Below are positions 895-44,495 of a stretch of DNA of 64,000 nt, piece after piece. The stretch's first letter is position 1. Each line of letters opens with the position of its first letter. The translations under genes were made by a program, and so were the position numbers. The notes under the pieces are model-generated. The model saw nothing but the letters and a program-made list of their open reading frames with translations, searched no databases and had not been told where the DNA came from. Source of the stretch: Lineus longissimus (lineage: Eukaryota; Nemertea; Pilidiophora; Heteronemertea; Lineidae); the NCBI RefSeq assembly GCF_910592395.1, contig NC_088320.1, positions 15,808,501 through 15,872,500 on the forward strand. Reading direction: 5' to 3'.

Positions 895-19898
<19,004 letters not shown>

Positions 19899-22668: not shown

Positions 22669-25576
22669 TCAAGCTCCAGTGTCTGCCTGGATACTCCTGA
22701 AGAAAAAATTTTTCCTCGACAGAAAGTGTTTGTCACCAACAATGTTCACACATCCATCGTGAAACCATATGCCACAGCGGTCACATCCAATACTTTCGTC
22801 ATATGGTCTTTTTGGTTCCTCTACACAAATGAGCTGGCAGTTGCCACACTTAAAGTCCCCTGAATCTTGGATATTGCTACTACTACTAGCAGCAATGGTA
22901 TCTGTAGCTGAAGAGTTGCCATCCTTCTTCCTTTTTTTCTTCTCACGGCCTTCAGTGTTGGTTGGTCTTTTTTGTGATCCAGCCTTTGGACCCAACGGAA
23001 ACAGAGAGCTTGCTTCTTCTTGCGAGGCAGGTCTTCTTTCAAGAGGAATAGCATTTCCTTGAACATGATCCTTGTGAAGTGATAGGAAATGCTGTAGTAA
23101 AGGTCATTGAGTGTCACAAGGAACATGTCTTCCATCCCTTCATCTTCAGCTTCATCATGTGGTGTAATAAAATCAAATAAAGTGAACCACTTATGCATTA
23201 GACTCTGATTCTCCTGAGCAGTGTTCCTTGCAATTGCAAGGAGATTTTCACCAAAAATATGGTACCTTTCTGGAGAGAATGTCCTTCCTAACAAAAGAAA
23301 TAGATCACAAAAGAACTTAAATGCTTCATCAGAAATATTGACCAGTTGGCGACCCGGACCCTGTCGAAAGGCAGTTTCCTCAAGGCTGTCCATGAATTCT
23401 GATGAAGCAAAAATGTCTTGCTCTTTCACTTTTAACTGAGACAAGATACTCCTCTGCGTGTACGCCACTCTTCTCTCAGTTGGCCTGCCAATACACCTGC
23501 GGACACTTTGGCCTAATTTGAAGAGACATTTTGCTACACATGCACCCCTTATATAACGAATCTTCCCCTGCATCGGACCATCAATGTCATCCATAGATTC
23601 TGGCATCATTCTCACCACCTGAATGTCGTCCACCTGCTTTTCTATTACCTTAGCAGCGTCTGTACGAACAATTTTATGAATAACGTTCCGAGCTATCCTA
23701 GTGGCACACTTGAGCTGAATCTGGGAATAATCCTTGGCATTAAACAGAAAGTGCAACTTGGTTTTGTAATCCTGTGATGTAAGCAAACCATATTCGCCAC
23801 CAGCCCCAAACACTTTTGCCCATCCCTTTGATGTGGTAGGTTTCTCCTTATCCATGATGAGGCTATAGTGAGTAAAAATCCAGCTGAGGAAATGAGTGAG
23901 TTCATTTTTACGTTCCTTAAGAAGTTCATCCATTTGAGCTCGTAAAAGCAGTTGCTCCTTTTCCTCCCCAACTGGTTTTGCATTCTCCATAGCCTCATCA
24001 ACAAATCCTCATCACGGATTTCTCTTAAGGGTGGCAGCTCTTTTGTTGTCTCATGCTCTGTCCCAGGCCCTGGCATGCCTGACAGTGGTTGGTGTGTACC
24101 CTCTGATGAATCTGACTCCTTGTCGGCTGTCAGTGTCTCTTGAAATGCACCTGTAAAAAGAATGACATGCCGGTAATTAAAGCAGGAATTACAATATCAA
24201 ATAAGGGGGTTCTATATGAGCTCCTGTTTTCTTTTGCGTATTACTTAACTTACCAAAAGCACTTAACAGTCACTCCAGTTATTGGGCATAAATTCAATAC
24301 CTGATTTTAAAATATATATCATCAGCTTTATATTGTGGCTGAGAGGTGGTGTGCATGGGGGGTGGGGGGATTTTGAGACCCCCCCCCCCCAATTGTAAAT
24401 TATTTGGTCAATGGATGACCCTACTGTTACTTACCATCTTCATCATTCACAACCTTCTTGCAGCATGCCATTCCTTCGTCAGGGGGATGGTTGGTGTCTC
24501 CGTGGCATAAAACGTATACACATCTGGAGGGTGTCTCATACTTGCACCAGCCAAATCAAAGTTCACAATCTGAAGGCCAGTTGAACAAGTGGCTCTACCC
24601 ACTGCAACTCCCATCTGCCCAGCCTGAAAGAAGTTGTGACAGTCAACCTTGAGACGATCGATGGTTTTCCCTTGGGCTCTGTGCACAGTAATGGCATAGG
24701 CAAGCTTCAGTGGAAACTGGTTCCTAAATGCAGCAACTTGTCCTGTATTTTGGTCAATGGCCTCAAACCGGTGGCGCTTTACTTGGAAACCTTTTTACTT
24801 TGAAGTCAACTGTGATTTCATCATCACCCAATGCCAGCACTGTCCCTGTCAAACCGTTCATCAAAATGTCACTAACATTTCGGATTAATATCACGGGGCA
24901 GCCAACTTTCAACTGCAGAACCTTGGGTGCAGCACATTTAAACAGCAACGCCTTCCTACCAGAGTCCTGACTTTGGTAATTCCTCATTTCACCCTGCGGT
25001 TTATCCAATTCTTCTGCATTATAAAATTCACAATCAAGATTTGTGCTGCAAATGATCACACAAACTTGTTGAATTGGTCTTTCCAAAGACTTGATAAATG
25101 CCAACGTTTCTTGTGATAGGGGCCCATCACATAGTTCATGGACTGCTCTCACCAATTCTGCCTGATTTTGCCTTTTAACTTCTGTCAAGTTTATATGGTG
25201 AGGAAAACATGTAATAAAGGTACTCGAAAGAAACGCAAATTCACCAAAGTCACCATAATGGGGGGCAGCCACAGGTGGTAACTGCCTAAAGTCTCCACTG
25301 GCCACAACCTGTATCCCCCGAATACCCTATTGTTCCCCCTCACTTTCCTGCAGACAAACTCCACCTGATTCCACGTTCATCTTGAGTCATCGAAATCTCA
25401 TCAATGATAAGGGCATCAGTCTCCCGGATCCTCTCCATGCATCCCTTTTTCTTGTCGTCATGCAGGATCAGGGTAATTAGTTCCTCATTTCCGTATCGTC
25501 CATCTTGCAGCCCCGCCCAGTGATGTAATGTAGTTCCTCTAACAAACTGCATGCTAGATATTCCAGTGGAAGACAT
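22669..25576 (-). pseudogene. PIF1-like helicase with C-terminal PHD finger, decayed
   Basis: Read right to left on the minus strand: SSTGISSMQFVRGTTLHHWA and DALIIDEISMT (helicase motifs Ia and II), VASGDFRQLPPVAA (motif III), then AYAITVHRAQGKTI and GVAVGRA (motifs V-VI) near 24690-24590. An intron follows, donor at 24435 and acceptor at 24150, in compatible phase. The next exon encodes about 380 residues I do not recognise, then a lysine-rich stretch and a PHD-type finger (CGNC, CDRC, WFHDGC near 22750-22860). Frame changes are needed near 25375, 24780, 24000 and 23000, and Walker A is missing because a LINE abuts the 5' end at 25577. The combination suggests a transposon-borne helicase rather than the cellular PIF1. 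It is very unlikely to be functional. Confidence 0.8.
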
Positions 25577-26380
25577 TTTTTTTGTATTTTATTATGACAA
25601 AAAACATATTTAATATACAAAGATGAATTTAGCCAGGGCTAAAGTCCCCGAGGGGACATTAGCAGCCCTGGCTGTACAGTTTGGTACAGACATATATTCT
25701 ATATTTGAGCCGCAAGGCAATATGAAAAAGAAAGGAAGAAAATGGAGGGGAAAAAACAAAACAACAAAACCTGTCGAAACTCTGGGGGTTTCTACTTCGG
25801 GAAAGAGGAGCGGTAAAAATCCTCAAGTGACTCGGTTGGTTTCTATTATAACACTGAACTTTATTTGATCTCTCACTACCGTCATCTCATCGTACACAGA
25901 ATATAATTTACAGCCCCTTATGGTGGACACATGTTTTGGAGTCTTTCTCAGCCCGGAGAGGTCATCGTGTCCAGCGAAAGAATAATAAAACTTGATACTA
26001 TGCCAAGTGTTTCTGTGCCTTTGAAGTCTGTAGAATTACCGACAAAACCAAAACACACTAGGTATGTAACAGCAATAACAATCACAAAAAAGTCTAAGTG
26101 ACACCAAGCAGTTCCCCAGTAAATTTGGCTGCGCGAGAAACAATCTTTTGATTGATTATACATGGGAACGCTTGGTGCCCGTGAAGTAAAATGACAAGCT
26201 TTTGGTTTAGGTTTAAAGTGAAAAATACATGATTAAAGGAAGGCAGTTGTCCAAGGTCCTGAAGAAGGTCAGCTCTGATGTTTTGAGCAAGAGGGCATTG
26301 TAAGAAGAGGTGTTTTGTTGTTTGGGATCTGTAACCACAGGCACATAATGGATCAAAAGTCTATAGAGTTGGCTTTCTTC
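25577..26380 (-). mobile_element. 5'-truncated LINE inserted in the helicase gene
   Basis: On the minus strand, near 26360-26270, the frame encodes DPLCACGYRSQTTKHLFLQC, the Cys/His C-terminal motif of LINE ORFs. A long untranslated stretch follows and ends AATAAAATAC plus an A-run exactly where the helicase frame resumes at 25576. Orientation and tail place the LINE as the insertion that removed the helicase 5' part. Confidence 0.65.
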
Positions 26381-29300
26381 GATAACGCTAACTTTGGGAC
26401 CTTAAAAGCCATGATGTCACCGAAGAGGGGAATATTCCAACAATCTCTGTACAAATTCGGAAAAAAATACAATGCACACAGATGAGGAACACAATGCCAG
26501 GTGGATGTCTATCACCATCCGACCATATCAAAGATAGGCCTCCTAGTAATATGATCCACGTGTAGCCTAATTAGGTCCCTGGTCAGACCCATCCCAAAAC
26601 AGCGGCTATGCTGGCCTACAGTCAAACTCGTTCCCAGCGCCATACGCTACACTTCTGACACTGGCACCAACGTCTAGGTCTCATCGCGGAGCAACAACCA
26701 AAAATGGCTACCTCCACAGGTTTCGGTTCGCCTACAAAACACTGCTATGCGCTCTTCATTTTGACAGTACAGGCGGAATGTACACTTGTGAAGTAATTTT
26801 TTACAACTTACTTCCCTTTCCATGCCATTGATGCAGTCAGGTCGTCCCCGAACAGTCATTCTGGTATCATTCAACGGCTAGGTCACTAAAAACGTGCTTT
26901 TCACGCTCACATAACTAATGAGATGTTTACGATGTTTAGTTTGATTTGATTGGATGTCTGGTGGTGTATAAAATGTGGCAAAAGTCTGACGGCACGAAGC
27001 TGACAACTTGGGCAAAGCATCACTGTGATATGTGTGCTGCCGAGATATAGTGCTATCAAAAGTGCTTTTGATTGTTAGTTCTATGCAAGGTTTCCCAAGT
27101 GTTAGGATTTGGAATGATACTGACAAATTTAATTGACCGTTTGGAACAAAAAAGTGACATTTTGGTGAAAACACAGGTTTTTTCAAGAATCTTGAAAAGT
27201 GAAGGGTCATGTTGGTTCTAGAAGCGGGAGCAATCTAAAACGCGGACGCAATATCGCTAGCCCGCTAGATTGGCCTACAGTGGGGCCTACAGTGTTTGCA
27301 GGGGTGTTGGAAAAACCCATTCTCACATCGAGGCTGTCTGATCACGTGACTGTCTTTAACAAGCCTCTCACATTTTGGACGTCATCACATGGCGAGATCT
27401 CGCCGTAATTGTAAGCGCCCGCAATTGACGTGATCACATGAGATATAGGTCCAAATAATATCCACCTACCAATAAAATATTTTCCACGCAACTGCTATGA
27501 TTCGTTTAGAAAATGTATTTATATAATTAATACTCGCTGGAATAGACTTATTTATACAAATAAATGCGACTTTATTAAAAAGAATTAGCCGATGACGGAG
27601 CAACGATATGAAGTAGTTCCCAGTACGAGCCCATATCACATGTATCACACATTTTAGTGCGAAAGCGCTATCTGTGCAATACAATGGGAAAAATCTGGAT
27701 GCTGGATCCTAGATGTCGATCGCTGGATGTTCGACTCTAGATTCCACATCATTGGATTTGCGCTGATGCCTGAACCCAAATTGGGGGGTCGTCCCAAAAG
27801 GAATGCCTTTCATTATTTACCCTAGTTTCTCTAGCATTTAGTGTAGGATCAGGTCGATGTCAATAGGCCTATAGAATGCCGTTCAAAATCACTTTAATAT
27901 GAGCATACAATTGAAAGGGCATGTTCACTTTCGTTTTGTGACCAAGTTTTGTGATCCTTGGGAAAACGGAAAAAGCGAGGAATTTGAAAATTGCAGGGAT
28001 GATACAATGATTAAAATGATTAATATTGGGTGAAATGACAATTCGTTTACTTGTCATTAACTAAGACAAAAGAACAATTGAACTGATTAGGCCTTGTGAA
28101 AATGCCATGATTTTCTAAATATTACTTCAGAAATGGGTTGTGCCGGTCATGAGAGCTCCAAATAATCCAATAATTTGATTCATAATTATCAGAAACACCC
28201 CAAAAAATGACTTTGAAATTCATCGTTTAAGGGAGAGTTGACCTCAGATGAACTATTAATTCCTCAAGCCATTTTAAAAATAGCCATTCATTACTTCGAG
28301 TTGGGTATTACATGAATCTGTTTGTAACACAGCAGATTGAACCATTCAACAGTGGGGGTGTGCACTGCGTGCTGGACAACAATGGCCACAGTGAACAATG
28401 AAGGCCTAGGGTTCATAGGCCTATAGAATGGCAGATGTGCTGAGCTGCCATCATTTTCCTATTGAAGGACACAAAAAGCCAATTGTTTGAGTTACCTGGG
28501 CCTACTGCTGATGAACTTTCTAATAGTTTTCTTTACTTTTAGCTCCTAAAAATGTCGTAATAAATGTATTGAATCTCAATATGGCCCTACTCTTTCATAA
28601 AAATGACTTGTTCTTCATCAAGAGGGCATAATGAGAATGAATGATGTCTATAAAAGTGATCAAATCCAAATGGACATCAGAAAGAAAAGAAATGATAATA
28701 AAATGAACCATTTCATCGCATTTGCTACAGATAAGAGTTAGGTTTTCCCCTGGATATCACCAGTCTTCCTGTTGCCTTTTTTTTCTTCAGGGTGTTTCTA
28801 ACAAATGAAACCAATGGCAAATATGAAAGCGGATACCAGTACCATTTCATTTGTGAGAAAAGTATAGTTTGGTGTTCATAAGCCTACTGTCAACACATCT
28901 ATACTAGGCATGCTTGAAATCCCTCAATTGTGAAGCACCCACCACAATGAACTGCATGCAGTGAAAACTACCCAGTGGACTTAGGGGACAGACACACCAA
29001 TAAGAGGACTTTGTATGGCAATGAATGCTTTAGATGATAAGGGAAAGAGCAAGCATTTGGCCTTCTGGTTTGATGTTCCCCCCCCCCCCCCGATCAGTGT
29101 GATATAGCTTATTATTGTAGTTTGTTTTTTCTTCTATGAACAGAACTTGTGTTGAACCGTGCAAGGCATACATTTTTAGTTCAACAACAAATGGATTTGA
29201 TTACATGAGGTTGCCAAAATCATCATCAGCGCCACCATAGGAGTAAAGAGAAACAATCGGACAGAATTTGCAAACCAGGAAAACATCCCAAGTGCGCATG

Positions 29301-29740
29301 TGCGATCAATCATTTTTGCCTGGGGCGAGGTGGCAGATTATGACCAGTTGTTTATCTTTTCTCCAATGGTGGCACTGATGTCAAGTGTGGCAAATGAAAT
29401 GATGATTACCTCTGAGACATACACTGGAAGTGTTATTTGTGACAAATAACCCCATATCTAATTTAACACATTATTCTTTCAAAATTAAACCCAAACTATT
29501 TTAGCAATTGTCATCTGAACATTGTTATTCTTCTAATTGCCCGAGGAATTTATTGTCTGGCCATGCTATTGATATACTACTGTGAAGCCTGCAACGCATC
29601 TGAAATTGAAAAACGACACTGGTTATTAGAGAATAAAACTTATGGTATAGGTTGTCCTACCTATCTGCAATCAACTGCCCATAAATGGAATCATCAGTCA
29701 CATCCCCATCAGTTTATCCACAGTCAGAATCACCAGTAAT
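26381..29740. other. No gene recognised
   Basis: About 3.4 kb without a convincing ORF or domain on either strand. It includes a poly-C run at 29080-29091, many AT-rich stretches and a possible AATAAA on the minus strand at 29549-29554, which could serve the gene ending at 29961. A short minus-strand ORF at 26674-26874 with an internal GTAAGT could be a first exon, but nothing supports it. Confidence 0.5.
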
Positions 29741-29744
29741 CCAA

Positions 29745-29965
29745 AGGAACAAAAGATAATCCAGGACTTGAATCCAGCAAAGTACGTTATGAACACAGTC
29801 TAGGCCAAACGTCAAATCACCTCAGTATCCAATGGAACAACAAATAATCCAGGACTTGAATCCAGCTAAAGTATGCTATGAACACAGTCTAGGCCAAAAA
29901 TTGAACGTCAGAATCATATGAATCATATGAATCTAGTCAAACTGCTTTTATGAACATAGTCTAGG
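29745..29965. repeat. Imperfect ~90-bp tandem repeats at a gene 3' end
   Basis: Two and a half copies of a unit containing AATCCAGGACTTGAATCCAG and TATGAACACAGTCTAGGCCA. The array runs into the last codons of the minus-strand gene ending at 29961, so the gene's stop region derives from, or was copied into, the repeat. Confidence 0.75.
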
Positions 29966-32900
29966 CCAAAAAGAAAACATTCAGGGTAAAGTTGTTCCCT
30001 TGTTGGTCCCAAGGTGATGCAGCCACTGGTTGCCTATCATCATCCATCCTCCACCAGATGTTGTTGGGGTCTCTTAGATAGGCGAACCAGTGGCCCACAT
30101 TGCACTGGTCCCCAGAATGGCACATGATGCTTTGAATTATCTTGCCATCTAGGGTACCTCCCTCTGGAGGTCTAATCTTGGTCATGCACTTTTGATTGCC
30201 TGATCGTCTGTTGACCTCGATTATAGTTATAGGTCCATCTACAGTGATCTGAAACCCCTGCGAGTGGCGTTCACAGACTCTCCCATTTCGTCCTTGGAAT
30301 TGACAGTGACCCTGGAGAATACCTGAATTTGCAAAGTGATCATGGTAAAGATCGATAAGTGACACTGCTTGGGGGCCACGTGGAACGTTAATCCTTAACA
30401 CGGTGCCATCCCTCACCAACTGTAAGTCAATGTGCCCCAGGGGGCAGTGGAATTGCCCTGGCCACGAAGTGAGAACTCCTTCAGGTATACTGAGTTTTTC
30501 CAACAAGCTCATTAGAAATTCTCCTGCATCCTGGTATACTCCTAGCACATACCCTCTCCCATCAATTGTGGTATTCAGAGTGGTAATGAGTTCCTGGACA
30601 GAGAAAGGTGCACCCTGTCCAGCCATCCTGGCACAAATATCAAGAAAGGTGTTGTCCACAAGATTTGGTTGATCACCTTGTATGTGCTGGCCAAGATTCA
30701 CATGATTTAAACACTGGAGCACAGCATTGCTGTAGCAAATGTTTGCGTCATTGATCAGTCCTGATCCTGGATATTGGGGCGGCATGGGCTCATCATTCCT
30801 GTCCACATCAGCAATGTTGGTCACTTCAGAGTCATGGGTGTCAGGGATCTCAGATTGTTGGGGACTTGTGCTCTGTTGTGGTGGGCGTTGTCTTTGTGTC
30901 CTACGGAAAACTGGTGTGCGACCCCTTGGCGCAGTGTAGCGAGGCTGAAGGGGTTCTGGCAGCTTTGGGTCGGCTAGATGACATTTTCTTACTACAGGAT
31001 CCCGAAACCTCTCCTCAGCACACAGTATCATCAGAAGTGCGGCTACATGGGCATCTGACGTGAGCATACGGGAGCCAAGGTCCCTCTTGGCAGCTGTCCC
31101 ACAAGTCCAACCACAAAGTCTCTGTAGCGGCCCAGTAAATCCTAGATAGTTCTCCAACTCGCTGTTCCTCGGTGAACCACTCTGTGTGAACACTACTAGA
31201 GGCCGTTTCATGTTCCCCGGGTTTCTGTTCGTCCTGTTTGCCGATGGCATTTTCATCGTTATGATGGTCACTCCTGTCTCGGGCCACTGGAAGTAAGTTT
31301 CATTGTTCCAGCCATCCGGAATCTCATCGACATTTGTGAAGTAAACACGGGTGGTAACTGGAAGTTCACGTGCCATGTCCCAGTATTCAGCAATACTTTC
31401 GAATTGGCCCATTTGAGCACCGATTTCGAGTTGCTTACAATGGGTAATGTAAGAACAACCCCTACGAACCAAGTACGGTCCAAGAGTGAATTCGTATATC
31501 TGCTGTGCACTAAGAGCTGGCAAGTCAAGGCGGTCTCTGAGTTGACCAATGTCTCCGACTTCAACACTGTTCCACTGAATACTCCTGGCAGAAGGGAACT
31601 GCAGCACATGAGGAGGAAGAGTGACTGAGGGGTCATGCAGGAAGTTACTGATGTTGAGTCGGTGCTTAATCAGCTTCGCCAGGCGAACCTGCTCCTGATC
31701 ATCCACGAACTTTATGTTGAATTTTGCATGGAACTGATTGAAATGTGACACTGCAGCTAGCCATATAAGGTAGATACGAGGACAATTCACATAATCATTA
31801 GGTATACCATATTTGTTGCAAAATTGTTCTCCAAGTGGTTGGAGGAACTGATAAGGTATTATGTCCAGGATTTTTTCATCAGCAATAGCTCCATGAAATT
31901 GTTCTACTCCGAATCTGAGCTTTCCAACTATGATTTTGCTGTTTTTTGTGAGAACAGGGTCGCTGGGAGATGCCGTCATCTCAATTTTACCACTTGTTGG
32001 ATCAACTTGGAGAATATCCTCATCCCCCTCACTAGGCCATATTAGCCTGCAACCATTCTCAGAACACCACTGCTTCAGATTTGTCACATTTTGTTGGCTT
32101 ACATTATGTGGCACATAGATGTACCCCTTGTCCACAGCGAGTATCACGAAGTAGTCCGAGGTTCCTTGAAGGAGAGACAGAAGTCCCTGAGGTGCGACCT
32201 CACTGTCAGCCTGACTTTCGCATAATTGCAACTCAACACCACACAGATTGCTATCACCACACCTTGGGGTGGCTGCTGCAGCCACAGGAAGTGTCAAAAC
32301 CACATGTCCTGTAGTATCCACCAAAGTAGAAAAGGTTATGAAATGCCCTCCCTTTTTGGAATAATAACAATCCTTCTGTTGCTCATAATCCATTGAGTTC
32401 TGCACCTTCACTTTTTTAGAATCCATGCTTGCAGCAACAGGCATCCTTGAAGAACCATCTTTTGGATCAGAAAAGTAGGACAGCAACTCACTATGGATGG
32501 GGGATTCTCGACCTTTCATATTGGAGTAAACATCATTTTTCTCAGAGTCACTTAGGTTACCAAACCACTGCAATGGAAGGCTTGAGCTATTGAGAATGTC
32601 AGCACACAACTCAGTCCAGAAAATGTCATTGGCAGTTGGCAGACCTATATCAAAGTACGCAGCCAAATCACGAAACTCTACGTTACTCCGCATTTTGTGC
32701 CGATACAACAATACTCTAGCAGAAGGATCCAAACTACGGCAGGTTGACTTCTGGGTCCTCCCCTGCTGATGCTCCCACACAAGCAGCCAGAACTGTTCCT
32801 TTTTCATGCCTGTGAGATTCTCTAGCTTCCAATCTGGCATCATCCATGGCTTTCGCATGTGATTCCAGTCCCGTCGTCGGTTCTCAGGCCATTCATGTCT

Positions 32901-35900
32901 TGGAAACTCAGCATCATAGCAACTGTCTGATACCCCATAAACATATGTTCCATCAGTGTTGTTTTCACTGCGGCTGGAGGTTTGGCCAGGCCTATCGTTG
33001 GGACTGGCAGTTTCAGAGTCTACGTCGTTGTTAGCAGCAGTCTCCGGTTCATCATCAGAAGAGGCGGTGTCCATTGGTTCATCATGGCTGGCGGTGTCCA
33101 TTGGTTCATCATGGCTGGCGGTGCCGATTGGTTCATCATGGGTGGCAGTATCAGCGTCATCATGTTGACCATCAATTGTCCCATTGCCTTGGACGTCTGG
33201 ATTACCTTGGTGATATTGAGCCTGTAATAGAACAAGGAATTGTTGCAGTTACTAGTGAGTTATACATGACACTTTGCACTTTGCAGGTGGGCTGCTGTAG
33301 GCACATGCCTTCCCTATTTAATACCTTTTTTCTCCAGAATCAAATGATTTTAGTTTTAATCAGCTGAAGGCTTTGACAAAGTAGTGGTTCATGAACTTAC
33401 AGCAGTCATCCAATGCATGGCAGTACCAGTCCCAAGTGTGCAATTTCAGAAACTAGTGGACCAATTCAGAAAGTGCTGATACTTGGTATCAAATGAAAAT
33501 GTACCATGAATACATTTTAGTTGAAATGTTACAATTGCTAGGTAAAATCATTTTATATCTTTAAAACACTGAAACCTGGCAGAGAAAGAACTGACCACCG
33601 GTGTAAACCTTGAGGGTAAAATGATGTTTACATCGTATTTCTAATCTTTTGCTCTAAAAATCAGGAATCTTCGTTTTAGATACCGTATACGCAAATATTT
33701 TTGTGAGGAAAGATTTCGCGATTTGGCCCTGCACTGACTATTTCGCGAGGAATAATGTTCGCGATGGGATCCCAAAAATCTTTGTAGAAAATTCCGATAT
33801 TCTCCTGATCGATGGAATTGGTGCTAATCACTCTGAAAAAATCACAGAAATTCGTCACTGTGTGGTTGTTTTCCTAGAATTTTCCTTGTTTTGATTTATG
33901 TTCGCGGGGAATAATCTTCGCAATACCGAATTAAATTATTGTGTATACAGTAAGTAGGCATTTCGTGTGTTACTCAATTTCAAGAGTGCAATAAATCATT
34001 GCAATCGACTGATATTTTCTGAAATCGCCCTTGGGACATGGACTGACCTTACCCCTGCAGCCCCTTATGGAATCTTTGATCTTAAAAAAAGTAAAAACTA
34101 CCAACCTACGCTATATTTTTTAGTTTTGTTATCAGAAACACAACCTAACAAAAAAGCAGTACACCCGGTAATGGTATTTCTAAGAATCTATGAACGTTTT
34201 TGGTAGTTTTCACTTTTTATAAACAATCACTATTCCAAGTTGTAAAGCCCATTTACAATGTACACAGCATCCTCATCAGAGGAAGCCCTATGCACATTTC
34301 ATGTACATTTTTTTTGGTTTTCACCCTGGCCCATATTGCTGGATTGGCAGCCCTTTCTAAACTAGTGGAGATACTGTAAACCCCCTTATTTTCGCTAGTG
34401 ACTTGATGACCGTATTTCACCCTTTAATCAAATGTCTCCTATGGCAATCTAAAAATGCATGATAAGAGTAATACAATTTCGTGCCTTTTACTTGTATTTT
34501 TGCGTTTAACGAGAAAAACATTTAAGAGGTTTACAGTACTCCAGAGGATTTTCAAACATGGTGGCTTTCCCGAATTTGACAATGGCCACCTGTTGGCCTG
34601 GGTCGTATGTACACACCCTCTTCAATGAATAGACCTCTTGCCTTAGTCTGACTCAGGGGCCGATTGGCCGGGGGTAAATTCTAATGGCTTCATGAATTGT
34701 GAATCCCTGTATCTCAAAATCAACTTGGCCGATTTTCGCCAAACATTTTACTGAAAGTCTAGATCAGCAACATACCATTTTTTTACAAATCTCTGTAGAA
34801 TGTTTATCATGTCTACAAGCAGAAAAAGTTTGGTGAAAATCGGTCCAGTAGATTTTAAGATATAGGGATTCACAATGTATAAACGACATTAGAATTAGCC
34901 CCCCCCCCCCCTCCATCAGCCCCTTTATCGGACAAAGGCAAGAGGTCTATACAAAACCCTCACCAACAGGATGGCAAAGCTGCTCAAATCGGGAAATCGA
35001 CGATGTTCGAAATGCATTGGTTCACATAGTTCGGAGGATAATACTTACAAACAAATCTCTATTTATGCAGTAATGCCGAAGATGTCTTTGTAGATTCGAA
35101 ATTCGCTGTCCACTCTCATGTATCAATGCCCCACAACCTTCACATACATGGAGCACCATGTCTAAAGCTGGCAGTCTTCATTCAATGCACAAACGTCTAA
35201 TGTGTTCTGATGGTAGAAAGCATGCTGGAATCTTGACAAAAGGAACTATTAGGAATGATGATGTAACATCTTATGGTTTCCTTGACCCTATTCAAACACT
35301 AGACATTAGACAATATTTTCATGGACAGGGTCCCTGCAGAAACTCATCTGTTGAATAGATTGTTCTCATTCATGCACAGCTCTATTGTCTGAATGACAGA
35401 ATACAAAGCAGGTGCTGTCTTTGAATAGCTCAGCACCTATTATTGATAAAATCCTCCCTTCCAAAAGACCCTATGATCCGGAAAAGTGTTACATTCTCCA
35501 GAGAGTAGGCCTAAAGGCACATTACGCAACCACAAGTAATCTCAATCAACAATGCATAACCAATTTATAAAGGGTAACAACACCTTTCACCCCCAGAGAG
35601 GAAATGGGGCAGTCTGACTCGAACTTCACTAAGATGGTCATGTAATCACCTTATAGGCCTAGTAATGACATAACATTCAGGGTGATCATAACGACCCTAT
35701 TTCTTAACGTCTTAAAACGAAAGTGAACAGGCCCTTTTGAAACTCCGTTCATAAAGGAGAAAGATATGCCAATAGTACCAAATCTGGCCACCAGATGGCG
35801 CCACCTGCAGTTTTCATACTGTAACACATCAACGTCCATTAATATATGAGAATACAATTGAAATTTTGAAACTCCGTTCATAAATGAGAAAGATATGCCA

Positions 35901-36356
35901 ATAGTACCAAATCTGGCCACCAGGTGGCGCCACCTGCAGTTTTCATACTGTAACACATCAACGAGTGGGTCTGTGTTTTATACTGGGGTCTGACTTTTAT
36001 ACTTGAGTGGGTCTGTGTTTTATACTGGGTCTGAGGTCTGTGTTTTATACACACCCTGTATGAAAGTTAAAAAATACGACACCTACCTGTCTCCCACGAT
36101 CCGTGTTGATGGATACGTCCAAAGTTGGCTCAGTGGTTTCCGGGGCTTTACTGGTAGTTGCCTCCTCCGCAATTTCCAACGGTTGATTATCCGAGTCGAT
36201 CTCTGTGTCACTGTTGCGAGAATCCATAACCGAGCCAAGTCCACATTCACATATACACCGGCACTGCTTAAGCGGCAAGTCACAAAAACACAGGCATTTA
36301 CACTTGTCGTTCCTCATCATGCACTTTTTTACTACTGTAGATGGGTAGCTAGTCAT
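29961..36356 (-). CDS. DDE-transposase-like / ubiquitin-specific protease fusion protein
   Basis: Two exons, 36356-36087 (90 codons) and 33221-29961 (1,087 codons with stop), both phase 0 with CAG|GTAGGT and TTACAG|GCT borders, giving about 1,176 residues without a stop or frameshift. Residues 12-40 are cysteine-rich; an acidic stretch with a tandem SHDEPMDTA motif follows (about 112-150). Residues 230-560 resemble the IS4/IS5-type DDE_Tnp_4 fold: an entry helix region (RSNVEFRDLAAYFDIGLPTA), Asp357 in ASMDSKKVKV, Asp454 in LAVDKGYIYV and Glu530 in LRFGVEQFHG are candidate catalytic residues. Residues about 910-1170 form a compact peptidase C19 domain: Cys box GLINDANICYSNAVLQCLNH (Cys919) and His box GHWFAYLRDPNNIWWRMDDD (His1134). 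I know of no named family with this order. It probably belongs to a mobile element; a host gene derived from one is the alternative. Confidence 0.8.
33681..33952. mobile_element. MITE with TACCGTATAC-type ends
   Basis: Starts TACCGTATACGCAAATATTT and ends with a diverged inverse, GTGTATACAGTA. Internal words TTCGCGAGGAATAATGTTCG and TTCGCGGGGAATAATCTTCG form a repeat. It lies in the intron of the transposase-USP gene. Confidence 0.65.
34372..34538. mobile_element. MITE with TACTGTAAACC ends
   Basis: TACTGTAAACCCCCTTATTT at the left faces GAGGTTTACAGTA at the right, and GCGTTTAACGAGAAAA extends the right arm. Intronic, non-coding. Confidence 0.7.
34630..34950. mobile_element. MITE with TAGACCTCTTGCCTT ends
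   Basis: TAGACCTCTTGCCTTAGTCT at the left faces the inverse AAAGGCAAGAGGTCTA at the right. The interior holds a C-run at 34901-34912. It lies in the same 2.9-kb intron as the two MITEs above. Confidence 0.7.
35735..35963. repeat. 100-bp direct repeat pair, 29 bp apart
   Basis: Copies at 35735-35834 and 35864-35963 are about 97% identical by eye. Each contains a short palindrome GGTGGCGCCACC (first copy GATGGCGCCACC). They are followed by a shorter repeat, GGGTCTGTGTTTTATACT (35968-36050). Located in the intron just downstream of the gene's first exon. Confidence 0.85.
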
Positions 36357-36401
36357 TCTCTCGGTGTATTGGAATACAACTAACAAGCCGACTGATGTGG
36401 G

Positions 36402-36413
36402 CGTTTATATAGT
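36402..36413 (-). promoter_or_regulatory. TATA box of the transposase-USP gene
   Basis: On the minus strand, ACTATATAAACGC lies about 50 bp upstream of the first ATG (36356-36354), the usual distance for a TATA box plus a short leader. Two other minus-strand genes nearby have similar TATA boxes. Confidence 0.6.
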
Positions 36414-37009
36414 CATACCTGATGAATAACCAAGCGTGGGGTGACCTTGACCTTTGCCACTCCCACATCCTGTTTCACGCTTGGAAAGTCATCAAACAGA
36501 AGGTTTATCTGTTTGGACACGATTCTACCCTCGCTTGGATTGTACATCACCATTTTTCCCATCATGACATGCGGGGACGATTTAACAGCTGGGTTGAGCT
36601 TGAAAGAAAACTCTCCTTTCATGTGGTCTAGTTGAGCTTGTTGTAGTAAGCGCCTATACCCACTCGAGGTTTTTGTGTTAAAGTTTGTCTTTATAATGTC
36701 CTTTTTCGTACAAGATATGTTCTCCCTGTTCAACATCCGAAGAACCGACACTAGCATCGCGCGGGCACTTTTCCGCACCAGCCTCCTTGGCTTGCTGCTA
36801 TTCTGCACCTTCCGTGGTTTGGGTGGGTGTCTAACCTTATTGGTTATAACATTCATCAGCCATTGGGCATCATCGATCTGTGGGGTCAATCTACATTTGA
36901 AACGCTCAACTACGGCATACACCAGTGCCTCAACAGTATCCCTAGACCTGTGTCCCGAATGCAGAGATGAAAAGGCCGCAGTGAAAAGTTGAACAATCGG
37001 TGAATCCAT
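36413..37009 (-). CDS. Unknown ORF of 198 residues, possible alternative first exon
   Basis: ATG at 37009-37007 follows a TATA box by about 50 bp. The product begins MDSPIVQLFTAAF and is basic in the middle (KPRKVQNSSKPRRLVRKSAR); I recognise no domain. Unspliced, it ends at TGA (36415-36413). However, the last codons read CAT CAG|GTATGA, a good donor in phase 0, which matches the phase-0 acceptor at 33221 used by the transposase-USP gene. It could therefore give that protein an alternative 197-residue N terminus. Its stop codon touches the TATA box of the next gene. Confidence 0.5.
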   Translation of the reverse strand: MDSPIVQLFTAAFSSLHSGHRSRDTVEALVYAVVERFKCRLTPQIDDAQWLMNVITNKVRHPPKPRKVQNSSKPRRLVRKSARAMLVSVLRMLNRENISCTKKDIIKTNFNTKTSSGYRRLLQQAQLDHMKGEFSFKLNPAVKSSPHVMMGKMVMYNPSEGRIVSKQINLLFDDFPSVKQDVGVAKVKVTPRLVIHQV

Positions 37010-37054
37010 CTTAGTACCCCCTATTGTTTCTGATGGTGTCTCAGTAATTGGGGC

Positions 37055-37067
37055 CAATTTATAAGAT
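37055..37067 (-). promoter_or_regulatory. TATA box of the 37-kb ORF
   Basis: The minus strand reads TCTTATAAATTGGCCCC, ending about 46 bp before the ATG at 37009. The 5' context is nearly the same as that of the TATA box at 40458-40470 (TCTTATAAAATTGGGAC). Confidence 0.6.
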
Positions 37068-37073
37068 TGAAAT

Positions 37074-37210
37074 CACTTGAGATAACACGCTTGATACATC
37101 ATCAACTTCATGATGATATTTCAAGCGTGCTAGTCAAGTGTTTCATGCATCAGACTATGCGCTTGATATGTCATCAGGAAGTTGATGACACAAACACCAT
37201 ATCAAGTGCG
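37074..37210. promoter_or_regulatory. Cluster of six TCAAGYG half-sites
   Basis: The heptamer TCAAG(C/T)G occurs at 37074-37080, 37088-37094 and 37160-37166 (minus) and at 37121-37127, 37134-37140 and 37204-37210 (plus). Two of the sites are embedded in a larger imperfect dyad (arms about 37088-37109 and 37176-37210, with ATCAACTTC facing GAAGTTGAT). The cluster lies directly upstream of the TATA box at 37055-37067. A further CGCTTGA is at the promoter near 40425. It looks like a binding-site array for one regulator, possibly an element-encoded protein. Confidence 0.55.
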
Positions 37211-37387
37211 AAAACAAACACAAGTCAAAGATTAAAAATAACAAATAAAAATTTATTTACAAAAATACAAGGCAACAGGGTGTTTACTATATACGGTCCT
37301 GGCATGTCTCATCAGGATTTACTTTGACATATAATATAAAACAGGGTGTTTATTATATATCCTGGCATGTCTCATCAGGATCAACTC

Positions 37388-40267
37388 CTATACAAAGATT
37401 AGCTGTCCACAAGTGGACACTTCGTCACTGTCATTTGAAGAATAATCAGAGTCATCGTCGTCACCCGGCAACATTGAGAGATGGACGACCTGTAGCGGCC
37501 GCCGCTTAAGCTTAGTCGGGCGCTTGATGGGCGGAGGCGCAATCTCAGGGTCCGTGGCCACAACAGTATCATCACTGGGGTGGCAGCGTTTAATGTTCTT
37601 GGTTATAGTAAGGCGCTGAGATGCATGTTCTGCATACATGTACTCTGTTTCCAACGTCACAGTACGAACAGGTTCTGCGGTAGCGATGTTTGCGAGTATA
37701 GTGTTAGCAAAGTCCTCGAATATGGGCACAGCATTGTGGGTGCTTATAATCGTGGCCACCAGATACCGAGCATACTGCGTGGGATGTATACGCGGATTTA
37801 TGGCCTATCTAACGTCTCCGCATAGTTCTAGCTTCCATAGCACGTATTTTTCTACGTGCATAACAACAAATATGCCACAGCTGTGTCCGTCTACTTGTCG
37901 CGCACTACACCGTATACCGTCGTCGCTAGCTTTCCAGGCTCTCACACCACCGCAGCATTTGATCCACAGATCCGTGAAGTAACGCACAGTGTCCGTTGTG
38001 GCCTCCATGCTATCTAATAGCGTAACTGTCGCCGTCTTCGTGTCACCAACCAACACACGCCAGTGGCCACCAATGCAGCAAGGTAGTACCACGAATCTTT
38101 TCTCGGTGGTGTCGAATGGATTTCCCTGTAAAACATAATTTGAACAACATGGTTAGTTTCTGGTATGTTATACACGTTCTAGGCATGGTGTCTCTAGTAA
38201 CGAATATGTTGTAAGTAGGCCTATAACTATTCTAGCCTTGCCACATAAAGTCATTTTACAGCGTTAAAACATGTATAAAAAATCAAATAGAGGTGTATGT
38301 CTAGATATAGCCATGTGCGGCCTGGGAAAAAGTGTAATTACCTTTCTGTACTCATATCCAATCTTCTGCGTGTGCCACTTGATGAAGACGCATGGGGATA
38401 TTAGCTGCACATGCTCTGCGAGGTTGCCGTCTTCCAACATCGCTTCCAAACCACCCATTACAGACATGTCAGTCAACCAGCGGTTGGCGTCTCCGGGGAT
38501 GGTGGTGAATTGATTGACGATGGGTGCCATGTCACCTTTGCTCAGAGAATGAGTGATGGTTCGTGTGTGGGTAAATGTCCCGTTGATCAACTCGACCAGC
38601 TCCTGGTCAGTCAACATGTCTTGATCGGGTTGAGGGTGGATGTCTGCAATGAATAAGGGCAGAGACCTGGTCACTAAAAAGCCAAAAATTTACATACATC
38701 CTGAAATAAAGTAAAAATATTAGTGCTGCAAAAGAAATTGTTTATTAACTCATGAATTTGCGCCGGCAATTTGTTATTTGGGCCCGTGTATAGACAAATT
38801 CGCAAACGGACAAACGTCGGACACTATCGGGAATGAGTCAGCCCGAATTTTTTTGTTCGGCACCCGGCGGGATTCGAACCTGGAACCTTCCGCTCGTCAG
38901 GCGAGCGCCCTAACCGTTAGGCCACGGAGCGACCCGCTTAATACGCAGCACGAACCTTGACTTGGCAGAGAGCGGATTAAGTAAACTCAAATTTGATGTT
39001 ATACATGTTCTAGGCATTGACGCCACATGCCATGGTGTCTCTAGTAGCGAATGTGTTAATTAAAAAGATAATGTTACACTGACCGGCATGGAATTCTTTG
39101 GCTAGGACCATCAGTTGCGTAAACTGGTAGTCCTCATGAAACCCTCTTATTATGATGTCCGCCATCACCGCCTTCACAGTGTTGTTGGTGTCATGTAGCG
39201 CCAATTGACCCATAACTTCGGTTTCTGTGTCCGTATACCGGTATTCGAGCGTGTATAGCGAAAGATCGTCTCCTTTCACTCGCACAATGTCCGCTATAGC
39301 TGTTTTGAGTATATAAAATTGATCACCGGCCAGTTCATGGCGCATGTAGTTTACTGCTGTCCATTCGGTTGTAATTGACTGCCGTTGCGGTGCTGCCACT
39401 GGGGTGGATGTGTACTGTGGAAATATATCCATATGAGATTCAAAATGTAAAGATGTCAGATTTTGATATTCACTTTCCGTACTAGCAATTGGCTGCAAAG
39501 ATGCCGTACTAGAAATTGGCGGCACGGATGTATATTCCGGTAATTCCAATGACATAACAGTTTGTAATATGCCAAAGCTTTCTGGATAGTCCGGGCATAC
39601 ATCACAAGGGTTGTGATAAATAACACCATCATCGTTCATTTGATCTGGTTGGGAATCCTCATTGTCGTCAGACACAGAAGGAGGCGGTGGTGCCCTGTCT
39701 TTCACTTTCAGCTGCCCCATGGCTTTGGTATCGGGGGCGGCCGTTATTTTTCCCGACGACTGTAGATTCGTAACGAAATTGGGGGTAAAGCATCCATATC
39801 CCCCTTTCGTCACGTCTACGGCTAGAGCTCTATACCCTTGCCGTCTATTGAAGTGTTCAATAATATCCTGTATCTCCAAACTCCTCGGAACAATCAGTAC
39901 ATTGCCGTCCGATGAATCGAATACGAGTCTTAGTTCTTTTTTTTGTTCCTTGTGCGGAACAGGAACCATGGCCGATTTCAAGTACCGGTATTTCCTTTGC
40001 CTGTAGTAACATTGCGTGTACTCTGTTTTGGTACAGTCCTCGCACTCGTTCGGTAGGAAATCTTCCCTATCTTGTGGGGGGCGCTGTGGTATTATCCTGT
40101 CCCGCTCGATGTAGTGAAGCATGAGGGTATACTCCTTGTCATCTATTATACCCGGACCTCTAGAGATTGCGGTGTCGCTTAAGCTCGAGGACTTGTACCC
40201 TTTCGCCGGCCCCGTGTGCACCAATGGAACAATATCTGTTGCTGATTTGTGGTTCCTTGGCTTGCGC
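37388..40267 (-). CDS. Ulp1/SENP-type cysteine protease gene with in-frame UAG
   Basis: Three coding exons are readable: 40267-39084, 38643-38342 and 38125-37388, with matching phases. An upstream exon should supply two bases and the start, but I could not identify it. The first exon (about 394 aa) has no domain I recognise and is Pro/Ser-rich in the middle. The last exon has a C48 (Ulp1) core: GGHWRVLVGD (His), VTLLDSME (Asp) and QVDGHSCGIF (Gln and Cys at SENP spacing). A UAG at 37807-37805 interrupts the frame 20-odd codons after the catalytic Cys, yet the frame stays open for 139 more codons to 37388. A possible AATAAA lies at 37254-37259. Ulp1-like proteases remove SUMO-like modifiers or process viral and transposon proteins; the substrate here is unknown. 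Confidence 0.75.
38859..38934 (-). repeat. tRNA-derived SINE head in the protease-gene intron
   Basis: On the minus strand there is a perfect B box GGTTCGAATCC (around 38870-38880) and an A box TGGCCTAACGGTTAGGGC (38907-38924), with an anticodon-arm-like hairpin between. In one register the loop is CTGACGA (GAC, Val-like). The acceptor stem pairs poorly, so a SINE or pseudogene is likelier than a tRNA gene. Confidence 0.65.
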
Positions 40268-40457
40268 CTACAAAATATAAACCCAAAACAAAAGTTTAGA
40301 TTTCAGCAAGAATCGTAACTCGGACGCACAGATAGTAGGCAGGGGCTATGCCGAGGATGCTAAACCGAAAATGATGAACAGAGAGTAAATCATTTTGCGC
40401 CGCTGTTATTTGGGAACGTGTATATACACGCTTGAAATGTAATAATGTACAAGTCCC

Positions 40458-40470
40458 AATTTTATAAGAC
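40458..40470 (-). promoter_or_regulatory. TATA box upstream of the Ulp1-like gene
   Basis: The minus strand reads TCTTATAAAATTGGGAC, followed by the small palindrome CGTGTATATACACG. The first ATG downstream (40393) opens only 13 codons, so the first exon is either non-coding or uses a junction I could not define. Confidence 0.5.
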
Positions 40471-41600: not shown

Positions 41601-41930
41601 GGCTATACAACCACTTGAAAAAACCAGGTGAATCTGGCAGCAGTTTCCCCCCCCCCCCCCCCGGCTTCCCATTACGCTCCAGCCCCATGTGTTCGTGGAA
41701 TATCCATCCCCATTTCTCAATGTCGGTAAAATACACTATTATTATTACAGCCAGATACGTGGGGCTGGGCCTCCAGCTGTGAGAGCCCTTTATTTTCAAG
41801 TGTCTTACAGCTAACGTAAATAGGTAGTCAATTGATCATATCAGAAGCTTGCCTGGCCAGAGGTGAGGGCAGACATGTTACCTGTGATGATGCAATGGAT
41901 AAGGTAGCCATGCTATTTTTAGCTCACCTC

Positions 41931-41971
41931 TTAGCAGAGGTGAGCTTATCCCATACCGTGGCGTCCGTCGT

Positions 41972-42021
<50 letters not shown>

Positions 42022-42960
42022 CGTCGTCCGTTAGCAGGGCACGTTTCGTAACTGTTAGAGCTATTGAGTTGAAACTTGGTACACATGTACCCTTATGTAA
42101 TGACACCTTTGAGACCAAGTTTCGGTCCGATTCGTTTTATGGTTTGGCCACCAGGGGGCCAAACGTTAAAAGTGAAAATATGCAATATCTCCCTTAATAG
42201 TAGTCGGGAAATTTTGAAAAAAATATGGTAGGTACTTCTAGCAAAGGTGCATCATACATCCTCCGGGTTTTTGATTTGACCTCCTTTTCAAGGTCACAGA
42301 GGTCAAATGGTGTAAATTGGCCGTTAGGATGTAACGATGGCACGTTTCTAAACTGCAATGACTATTGATACCAAATTTGGTACACATTTACCCCTTAGTC
42401 AGGTGATCTCAGGGACCGAAGTTTGGTCCAATATGATTCACCACTTGACCACCAGGGGGCAAAATCCAAAAACCTTAAAAATGTGATTATTCCTTAACTT
42501 CTTGCCCGATTGCCACCAATTTGATATCATGGGTACATCTAACCACCATACAGTATATGTCACACAGGTTTTTAATTTGACCTTCTTGTCAAGGTCACAG
42601 AGGTCAAATGGCGTAAATTCGCCGTCAGGCCGTAACTATGGCACATTTCTTAACTGCAATGACTATTGATCACAAATTAAGTACACGTGTACCCCTTGGT
42701 CAGGTGATCTCAGGTACCGAAGTTTGGTGCGATCTGATTTGCCGTTTGGCCTCCAGGGAGGGGGCCAAATCCTAAATTCTTCAAAATGCCATTATTCCTA
42801 GTAATGACTTGCCCGATTGGCACCAATTTTATATCATAGGTACATCTAATTCTAACAACCATTCAGTGTGTCACCCGGGTCTTCTTTGATTTGACCTACT
42901 TTTCAAGGTCACAGAGGTCGAATGTACTGTAAATTGGCCATTTTGGGGAAATTGTAATTG
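41931..42960 (+). repeat. CGT microsatellite followed by ~300-bp tandem units
   Basis: GTGAGCTTATCCCATACCGT leads into a (GTC)n run (about 41966-42025) and then about three diverged units of roughly 300 bp containing GGCACGTTTC, GGTACACATGTACC-like and AAGGTCACAGAGGTCAAATG phrases, ending near GGTGAGCACAATGGCCCTGG (43031). Same family as 14470-15260. The Arg-rich ORFs over the (GTC)n run are artefacts. From 43050 to 43890 I see nothing. Confidence 0.8.
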
Positions 42961-43889
42961 CTTGGACCTACATCAAACCTAACACTACATGACACAATAC
43001 CATGCTCTTTATCCATCTTTCCTCCACATGAGGTGAGCACAATGGCCCTGGCCATTTCATTATGGAATTGTTTAGTTCATTGGGTCAGTAATGCCCTGCA
43101 GCCTTTTCAAGCCTCGTTGATTTCACGACTACTATCCAGAAAGACTAGATCGGAAATTGTCTATCAAACATTGCATTCTTCGTCTCGAACAACAAGGGTA
43201 CGGTATACGGTAGTTGGCTGCAGTGCAGGTCTACCAAAAGTTTGAGTTGAATCGGGTTGATCAGTCTCACAGGCTGGCATTGCCACCCTTACTCGTTTCA
43301 TTAGCTAAAAAAAAATTATAAGCATATGCATCATGACCATACGTTAGAAAATTCGAAAGGAAACCATTTCATTCGTTCCCACTATTGACTAATGAGTCGG
43401 CGCAACATCAGGTAGGCTACAGTCGGAATTCCGCACCATGTTGACACTTGATCATGCTTACCATGTACGCTCTGTTACTGCTATAGTAATCAGATGTAGC
43501 CTCGCCAGAGGGTGAACCTTGATGTCTGGGCCTTAAGAAAGGTTACAAGCATCACTTGTGAACATACAACCGAAAAATGGAAAATGCAGTGAATCAGATT
43601 TATTCCTACCTTTTAAGATAATTGCCAGGTCTGATTGCAAAGAAGAAAGTCTCTCTTTTTAAAGTAAATTTTGATGGACTTTAGTCTGGTTAGTTATAGA
43701 AGAAATTATAAAAGTTACGAACCAGAGTGATCAAAGTGACAACATTACATGATTTTGTTGCTAAATAAAGAGGCGAGACGTCATGTGCCAGGTTCCCTTT
43801 GGCCAACCTTGAACAGCCTTGCATAACCTTTTATGCAACGCTGCTCAAAAGCATTGTCTTTCTAAAATGACAACATGACCGGCACAACG

Positions 43890-44495
43890 AACCGTCTTTG
43901 GACCCGTCACCTCCACGTGCCGTTCGGAAGTAAGCCTGTTCTTTGGTAAGCCTCCTATTGCCTTGGTATGGTTTCATGCACCATGGCAACAACCGAGAGG
44001 CACTGTCCCCCAGCAGATCCAGTCCGGGAACAGTTCATTATTCTCACCCCTTTCATAAATGTCGGACAATGCGAATACACGGGCATCATGAACACTTGCA
44101 GGGTGACCAAGGATGATGTCAATAAATTTGTAATCCGCATCAACAGTACCCTGCAACACAATGCTGTAATACTGCTTCCGGCAGAAATAGTCAATTCTAT
44201 TGTTCCTTGGTCCAATAATTGGAATATGGGAACCATCTACCGCTCCACAACACTGAGGGAAGCCCCACTTCATCTTAAACAGTTCCACAGTTCGTTTCAG
44301 GTCTGCTTCATTTGGTAGTCTAATGAATTCCCCGAAGAGAACATCCACAATTGCTCGGCAAGTGTCGTTGACAATTTTGACCACAGAACACTGAGCAACA
44401 CCAAACAGGTGACCAATAGTTCGACATTCGTTGTTTGTGGCCAGTCTCCATATCGTGATGACGTGATTTTAACATTTAACAAAGCATATCTTCTT
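43890..44495 (-). pseudogene. Harbinger transposase, 5'-truncated and frameshifted
   Basis: The minus-strand frame runs from VITIWRLATNNECRTIGHLF through VVKIVNDTCRAIVDVL and CCGAVDGSHIPI (first Asp) to VDADYKFIDIILGHPASVHD (second Asp). After a frameshift near 44025 comes LLGDSASRLLPWCMKPY, which carries the third acidic position of PIF/Harbinger transposases. The N-terminal third is missing and the C terminus fades out near 43890. Confidence 0.85.

Follow-up and report, generated by a model that had tools for sequence, protein, structure and literature searches.

The 64,000-nucleotide stretch of the Lineus longissimus genome analysed here (NC_088320.1, positions 15,808,501 to 15,872,500 of the forward strand; referred to below as the window and numbered from its first letter) very probably carries a recently active, 7.8-kb cut-and-paste transposon of Spy-like type, which encodes a transposase joined to a ubiquitin-specific protease (USP) and which has inserted beside two unrelated genes with single matches in the genome. 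An initial annotation of the window had described three minus-strand coding units, which we also find in the open-frame listing and by predicted splicing (the transposase–USP frame at 29961–33248, a 198-aa orphan at 36416–37009 that we refer to as gene B, and a spliced Ulp1-like gene at 40267–37388 that we refer to as gene A). It had also proposed that all three belong to a single self-contained element bearing both USP and Ulp1 proteases, and this we do not accept, as the limits of the mobile unit are 27917 and 35734 and both gene A and gene B are excluded.

Copies and age of the transposon

The genome to which the window belongs (391 Mb in 30 contigs) was searched with the transposase–USP protein, giving at least 59 matches (85 candidates, 42 scored; all lower bounds). 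At least eight of the loci, on eight contigs and including the window copy, are full-length, open and ~100% identical, and in two more near-identical loci the main frame is interrupted by a TGA. The frame of 1,095 codons at the centre of this work (29961–33248, minus strand) is not a chance opening, because it is open in eight places at ~100% identity, and no other stop-to-stop frame of at least 150 codons was found inside 27917–35734. We then compared 20 kb around each of the seven other open copies, and around three copies of a 60%-identical relative, using 24–46 kb of the window as the reference. Every one of the seven gave one continuous block at ~27914–35737 with 99.7–99.9% identity (BLAST), the limits of which coincide with a pair of inverted repeats (pair I3), with homology continuous only up to there in 7/7 cases. 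A copy search had been suggested from the start as the way to define the ends of the element, and it did so, as all seven copies stop at the inverted repeats.

Beyond the block just scattered repeats match, these being 274 bp at 25772–26044 in the C17 stretch, which do not adjoin the element, and, for the C2 stretch, the tandem repeats at 41.9–43.1 kb. We note that the window has a ~1.1-kb repeat with 301-bp tandem units at 41916–43062, and that this also flanks the C2 copy of the element on both sides. The eight copies differ pairwise by 2–9 substitutions over ~7,818 bases (0.026–0.115%), plus short insertions and deletions, and we conclude from this that the family moved very recently. The earlier reading of the frame as a transposase–USP fusion on a mobile element is therefore sustained, as it is both multi-copy and recent (eight open, near-identical copies).

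Ends, target site and empty site

The element ends in terminal inverted repeats of which the two arms are equal at 20/21 bases (counted from the printed sequences), and it lies between the AAA and TTT halves of its target (see Table 1 for the coordinates of all features). A neighbouring tandem-repeat unit provides a copy of the empty site, and the flanks of the element, when joined, match this at 117/120 bases and without a gap across the AAA/TTT junction (20 bases to the left and 100 to the right). AAA and TTT must therefore have pre-existed, with nothing duplicated or lost. The initial annotation had proposed that the ends be searched for inverted repeats and target duplications; the former were found, and target-site duplication is absent from the eight copies compared and from the empty site. 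To the extent that sequence comparison can do so, the copies and the empty site establish that the element has moved as DNA and that it inserted between AAA and TTT without duplication.

Table 1. Features of the transposon and its surroundings (window positions; numbering of residues follows the 1,095-codon frame).
Feature	Position	Strand	Basis
Spy-like DNA transposon, 7,818 bp, one of eight near-identical full copies	27917–35734	-	Copy alignment
Terminal inverted repeat, 3' side of gene, GGGCATGTTCACTTTCGTTTT	27917–27937	+	Pair I3; copy ends (8/8)
Terminal inverted repeat, 5' side of gene, GGGCCTGTTCACTTTCGTTTT as minus-strand reading	35714–35734	-	Pair I3; 8 copies
AAA half of target	27914–27916		AAA in 7/8 copies, CTT in C6 copy
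TTT half of target	35735–35737		TTT in 8/8 copies
Empty-site copy (neighbouring tandem-repeat unit), AAATTT uninterrupted at 35861–35866	35844–35963		Flank alignment
Near-terminal repeats: 1.9 copies of an 88-bp unit and a partial third motif	29734–29970		Repeat and motif scan
Main exon, stop at 29961, predicted acceptor 33221	29961–33221	-	Open in 8 copies
Predicted exon 1 (111 bp, phase 0, donor GTAAGT), with start codon and a zinc-finger-like motif of Cys/His type	35049–35159	-	Relative's frame
HTH_Tnp_4-like helix-turn-helix, residues 172–210	32619–32735	-	Pfam, below cut-off
DDE transposase region, D276, D373 and E449 conserved	31329–32756	-	Alignment A1
C19/USP domain, Cys838, His1053 and Asp1070 in boxes	29964–30770	-	Pfam UCH, PDB profiles
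Gene A, Ulp1/C48-like, predicted exons 40267–39084, 38643–38342 and 38125–37388, outside the transposon	37388–40267	-	Predicted splicing, in frame apart from one TAG
Gene B, 198-aa orphan, outside the transposon	36416–37009	-	Single genome match
90-aa open frame with a splice-donor-like site at its end, outside the transposon	36087–36356	-	Outside copy boundaries

Similar ends are found in relatives from the same genome. The three 8.08-kb copies of the 60%-identical family are 99.3–99.7% alike and have inverted repeats of 163–175 bp (91–93% alike) with GGGGCTGTTCA ends; two of the three are flanked by AAA and TTT, and the third (the C7 copy) has ATA on the right. In a family with 51% identity, the C6 copy has GGGGATGTTCGG ends placed between AAA and TTT, and the left flank of the C20 copy reads TAA, its right end lying beyond the sequence examined. 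Further relatives at 44–54% identity are present among the matches listed for this genome. The near-terminal repeats of the window copy might, as a guess, be binding sites for the transposase, and the 60%-family relatives have a ~96-bp direct repeat in a comparable position.

Other candidates for the ends were not retained. Blind comparison of 26.5–29.76 kb with 40.47–42.26 kb gave four inverted-repeat pairs, where the background has a mean of 14, and a 17/18-bp inverted pair at 29802/42735 lies within a tandem repeat. The sequence TAGGCCTA has 10 occurrences in the window against 0.9 expected, an excess that is reminiscent of echinoderm or hemichordate DNA and may hold a hint of host lineage.

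The transposase–USP protein

The predicted exon 1 of the transposase–USP gene opens with ATG and agrees in phase with the predicted acceptor (33221), giving a predicted protein of ~1,123 aa. It was recognised from the zinc-finger-like N-terminus of the 60% family, with which the translation of 35159–35067 shares 52% identity over 31 aa. The 36356–36087 frame is also in frame with the main exon, and was rejected as exon 1 since it is outside the mobile unit.

We examined the conservation of the protein in an alignment (A1) of seven frames from five lineages, in which L029 is seemingly near-identical to L031 and L027, from the L023 family, is truncated; L025 (also of the L023 family) and the broken frames L032 and L034 were omitted. 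Amongst the aligned sequences reaching these positions, D276 and D373 of the DDE set are present in 5/5 and E449 in 7/7. The corresponding domain models are sub-threshold, with E = 0.054 for DDE_Tnp_4 here and 0.01 in the relative L030, and E = 0.01 for HTH_Tnp_4 here, 0.0035 with a fragment, and 0.00059 in L030 (all below the Pfam cut-off).

The C-terminal domain has a Pfam UCH match comfortably over the threshold, with E = 5.7e-11 (42.9 bits vs a cut-off of 23.9). A PDB profile comparison returned 54 sequences with USP36 and USP14 at the top, all of which are ubiquitin carboxyl-terminal hydrolases by name except for one of Josephin type. The catalytic Cys838 is found in 7/7, the GHW box in 6/6 and the Asp in 6/6 of the aligned sequences which reach them, with the boxes in order. 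In six pairs drawn from five lineages of this one genome, and which are not independent of each other, the USP domain has values of 0.76–0.86 for silent sites (pS, saturated) vs 0.28–0.42 for replacement sites (pN), and the linker preceding it is nearly free to change (pN 0.53–0.70). Since the silent sites are saturated and the replacement sites are not, the domain is under purifying selection, and these alignments indicate that it has been retained by selection together with its catalytic residues.

It might be argued that the USP domain is catalytically dead or serves simply as a ubiquitin-binding module. The usual USP Cys box is NxGNTCY and the common His box is GHY; here the Cys box reads ND..xCY and there is a GHW box in place of GHY. 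However, Cys, His and Asp are kept in every aligned sequence reaching them and purifying selection acts over the domain, and we consider an inactive domain to be improbable.

Less could be obtained from the other approaches taken. Structure predictions made without relatives had a mean predicted local distance difference test score (pLDDT) of 38 and 36, and a SWIM-like reading of residues 700–740 found no Pfam support and is not claimed. Scans of viral contigs and of genome contigs (viral and prokaryotic collections) with the single protein, which reach close relatives only, produced no relatives of the transposase–USP protein.

Comparison with known transposons

The published Spy elements are members of the PHIS superfamily with a DDE transposase (PMC11304231, PMC4482050), and they have inverted repeats and insert between AAA and TTT without target duplication (PMC11304231). 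The element in the window is alike in having inverted repeats and in its insertion between AAA and TTT without duplication, and its predicted protein resembles a DDE transposase in the conserved D, D and E residues. In integration outcome it works like Spy, to which we liken it on the basis of published descriptions; with domain models that fall below their cut-offs, we treat it as a candidate member of the group.

Several observations sit less comfortably with our interpretation. The published Spy elements are 1,165–5,910 bp long with a transposase of ~700 aa (PMC11304231), whereas the window element and its relatives are larger (7.8–8.1 kb) and the predicted protein of ~1,123 aa ends in a USP domain. 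The DDE_Tnp_4 and HTH_Tnp_4 matches are below the Pfam cut-offs in every member scanned, the junction between exons 1 and 2 is predicted from sequence, and three copies have a flank other than AAA or TTT (C6 of the window family has CTT, C7 of the 60% family has ATA at its right end, and C20 of the 51% family has TAA at its left end).

ISL2EU elements are also similar, with inverted repeats that begin with GG, a DDE domain and helix-turn-helix, and an A/AT/T target which resembles AAATTT. However, they produce a 2-bp AT duplication and most autonomous candidates have a second frame encoding YqaJ (PMC4482050), and the window element shows neither a duplication nor a second frame of at least 150 codons. 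Ginger1 provides a precedent for a transposase with a C-terminal ubiquitin- or SUMO-type protease, this being OTU or Ulp1 and never both. It differs in having a Gypsy-integrase-like transposase and CCGG/CCGT-specific duplications, and in carrying OTU or Ulp1 rather than USP (PMC2836005). Mutator-like elements with Ulp1 likewise carry a modifier protease on a transposon, with a different transposase and a different protease, and are relevant to gene A only (PMC2836005).

It should be noted that a transposase–deubiquitinase fusion is not wholly new, because the Trichomonas vaginalis protein XP_001314237.1, in which a DDE transposase (transposase_11) is joined to Peptidase C19, is mentioned in PMC2836005. 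This differs in being a protist protein with a transposase_11 domain, and the passage which mentions it gives no element, ends or activity. The words 'ubiquitin' and 'protease' are absent from PMC11304231, and 'ubiquitin' and 'peptidase' are absent from PMC4482050. Among the titles and beginnings of abstracts listed from the open-licence PMC literature, where papers on USP were mostly unrelated, none names a USP domain joined to a transposase of Spy or Harbinger type. To judge from these, the apparent novelty lies in a young, multi-copy element of Spy type which targets AAATTT, has defined ends and carries a USP domain.

A possible role for the USP domain

We propose that the element encodes one predicted protein with a zinc-finger-like N-terminus, a helix-turn-helix, a PHIS-type (Harbinger/ISL2EU/Spy) DDE nuclease and, at the C-terminus, a USP deubiquitinase domain. 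Binding of the transposase to the GGGC...TGTTCA ends would be followed by excision of the element and its joining to AAA on one side and TTT on the other, with no target bases duplicated. By analogy with the families to which the domains are likened, DDE chemistry would operate at the ends and the C-terminal domain would have deubiquitinase activity, with the predicted USP domain most likely acting in cis as it travels with the transposase. It may strip ubiquitin from the transposase, or from proteins at the site of excision or insertion, so that the complex escapes proteasomal removal or gains a favourable repair.

The first of these, in which the USP domain protects the transposase itself from the proteasome, is a plausible suggestion which we make tentatively. 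We regard it as somewhat unlikely that the domain acts instead on host proteins, such as chromatin (e.g. histones that carry ubiquitin) or DNA-repair factors where the element is excised or inserted, easing access or repair. Fusion in cis and conservation are in keeping with such a role, as is the suggestion by the Ginger authors that transposase Ulp1 and OTU domains may activate repair factors (PMC2836005), although sequence cannot tell action on host proteins from self-protection.

The initial annotation had imagined a unit countering host control by ubiquitin and SUMO, and this idea could now apply to the USP half only. More boldly, a whole clade of AAATTT-targeting, duplication-free transposons may have fused their transposase to a working deubiquitinase, with activity in cis needed for transposition because the host marks the transposase, or the complex it forms with DNA, with ubiquitin; this too is a conjecture that we would not yet rely upon. 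If it were true, the transposon and the ubiquitin system of its host would be in direct molecular conflict in this genome, either now or in the recent past. Several groups of transposons carry ubiquitin- or SUMO-protease domains, for which the Ginger authors proposed a role in repair (PMC2836005). The value of the present family lies in its being very young, with eight open copies, defined ends, target and empty site, and a USP domain on which purifying selection has acted in five lineages. Because the Spy group has a cell-culture transposition assay (PMC11304231), whether the deubiquitinase helps transposition becomes directly testable.

Neighbouring genes A and B

The SENP-type protease reported in the initial annotation is gene A, and the domain assignment agrees with a Peptidase_C48 match above the cut-off (E = 2.4e-5, 24.7 bits vs 20.7), though the gene is not intact as read. 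The three predicted exons, which exclude the gene's first exon, join in frame apart from one TAG at 37807–37805, after which there are 138 open codons; this might be a nonsense change, a readthrough codon or an assembly error. The motifs GHW, LLDS and QVDGHSCG, read by eye, are candidates for the C48 His-Asp-Gln-Cys set. A tRNA-Val (GAC) gene or the tRNA-like head of a short interspersed element (SINE) is located at 38859–38931 in the first predicted intron.

In whole-genome searches, the N-terminal 393 aa of gene A match themselves only (one match), as does the 198-aa gene B. In the ~10.7 kb past the element end on the gene side of the seven other copies, there is no translated match (E up to 1e-3) to the N-terminal, Ulp1 or C-terminal parts of gene A, and none to gene B or the 36356–36087 frame. 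NCBIfam, PHROGs and PDB gave nothing usable for the N-terminal part of gene A or for gene B, and no relatives of the Ulp1 exon, gene B or the N-terminal part of gene A were found in viral contigs by single-protein scans, which detect close relatives only. The initial annotation held that single-copy genes with conserved synteny would speak against its proposal, and the single-copy part of this applies to the N-terminal region of gene A and to gene B, and not to the transposase–USP gene with its eight copies.

These results bear on whether one element of at least 10.5 kb could hold the transposase–USP, 198-aa and Ulp1-like genes together. The genes are indeed head to tail, have TATA-like sites, and encode protease domains that are real. 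However, in 7/7 other copies the element stops at its inverted repeats with neither gene A nor gene B beside it, the N-terminal part of gene A and gene B match only themselves, and the empty site reveals an insertion junction beside these genes. The claim of two proteases in one unit is refuted on these grounds, and we consider the larger element to be exceedingly improbable. Gene B in particular had been counted as part of the element, and it is outside the copy boundaries with a single match in the genome.

A similar TATA box had also been reported before each gene. We do find TATA-like sites at 40466, 37063 and 36411, but TATAWA is too common on this strand (20 minus-strand occurrences within 29–42.3 kb, and 70 across the window) for the likeness to be taken as a sign of one unit, and in a region of 13 kb with 20 such sites the three matches are weak evidence. 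Furthermore, the site at 36411 is outside the transposon and therefore is not the transposase–USP gene's own promoter.

A further explanation is that genes A and B and the 36356–36087 frame belong to an older element distinct from the transposon, or to a domesticated locus, into which the transposon inserted. All are on the same strand, TATA-like sites are found 54–55 bp before the ATG of gene B and of the 36356–36087 frame, and the Ulp1 domain is known from several transposon groups (PMC2836005). Against this, the N-terminal part of gene A and gene B have single genome matches and no transposase or ends were found for them, and we consider such an origin to be rather less likely than not.

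Other elements

Fragments of further elements are also present in the window. A PIF1-helicase fragment (Pif1_2B, E = 1.3e-7) lies beside a 395-aa frame with no Pfam match above the cut-off, both on the minus strand at 22821–25326, and a 493-aa frame at 45040–46520 matches Pfam Mutator (PF20700, E = 3e-12). A Harbinger-type DDE_Tnp_4 fragment at 43975–44468 (E = 1.7e-11) matches its domain model more clearly than does the transposase with the USP fusion. An array of ~162 copies of a 17-bp unit at 2096–4853 is open in several minus-strand frames. Elsewhere in the genome, near a copy of the 60% family, a 1,004-aa frame (L024:5833-8844) has an Endonuclease_7 (His-Me finger) match with E = 1.8e-7, and may, as a guess following the description in PMC9587614, belong to a KolobokP-like element.

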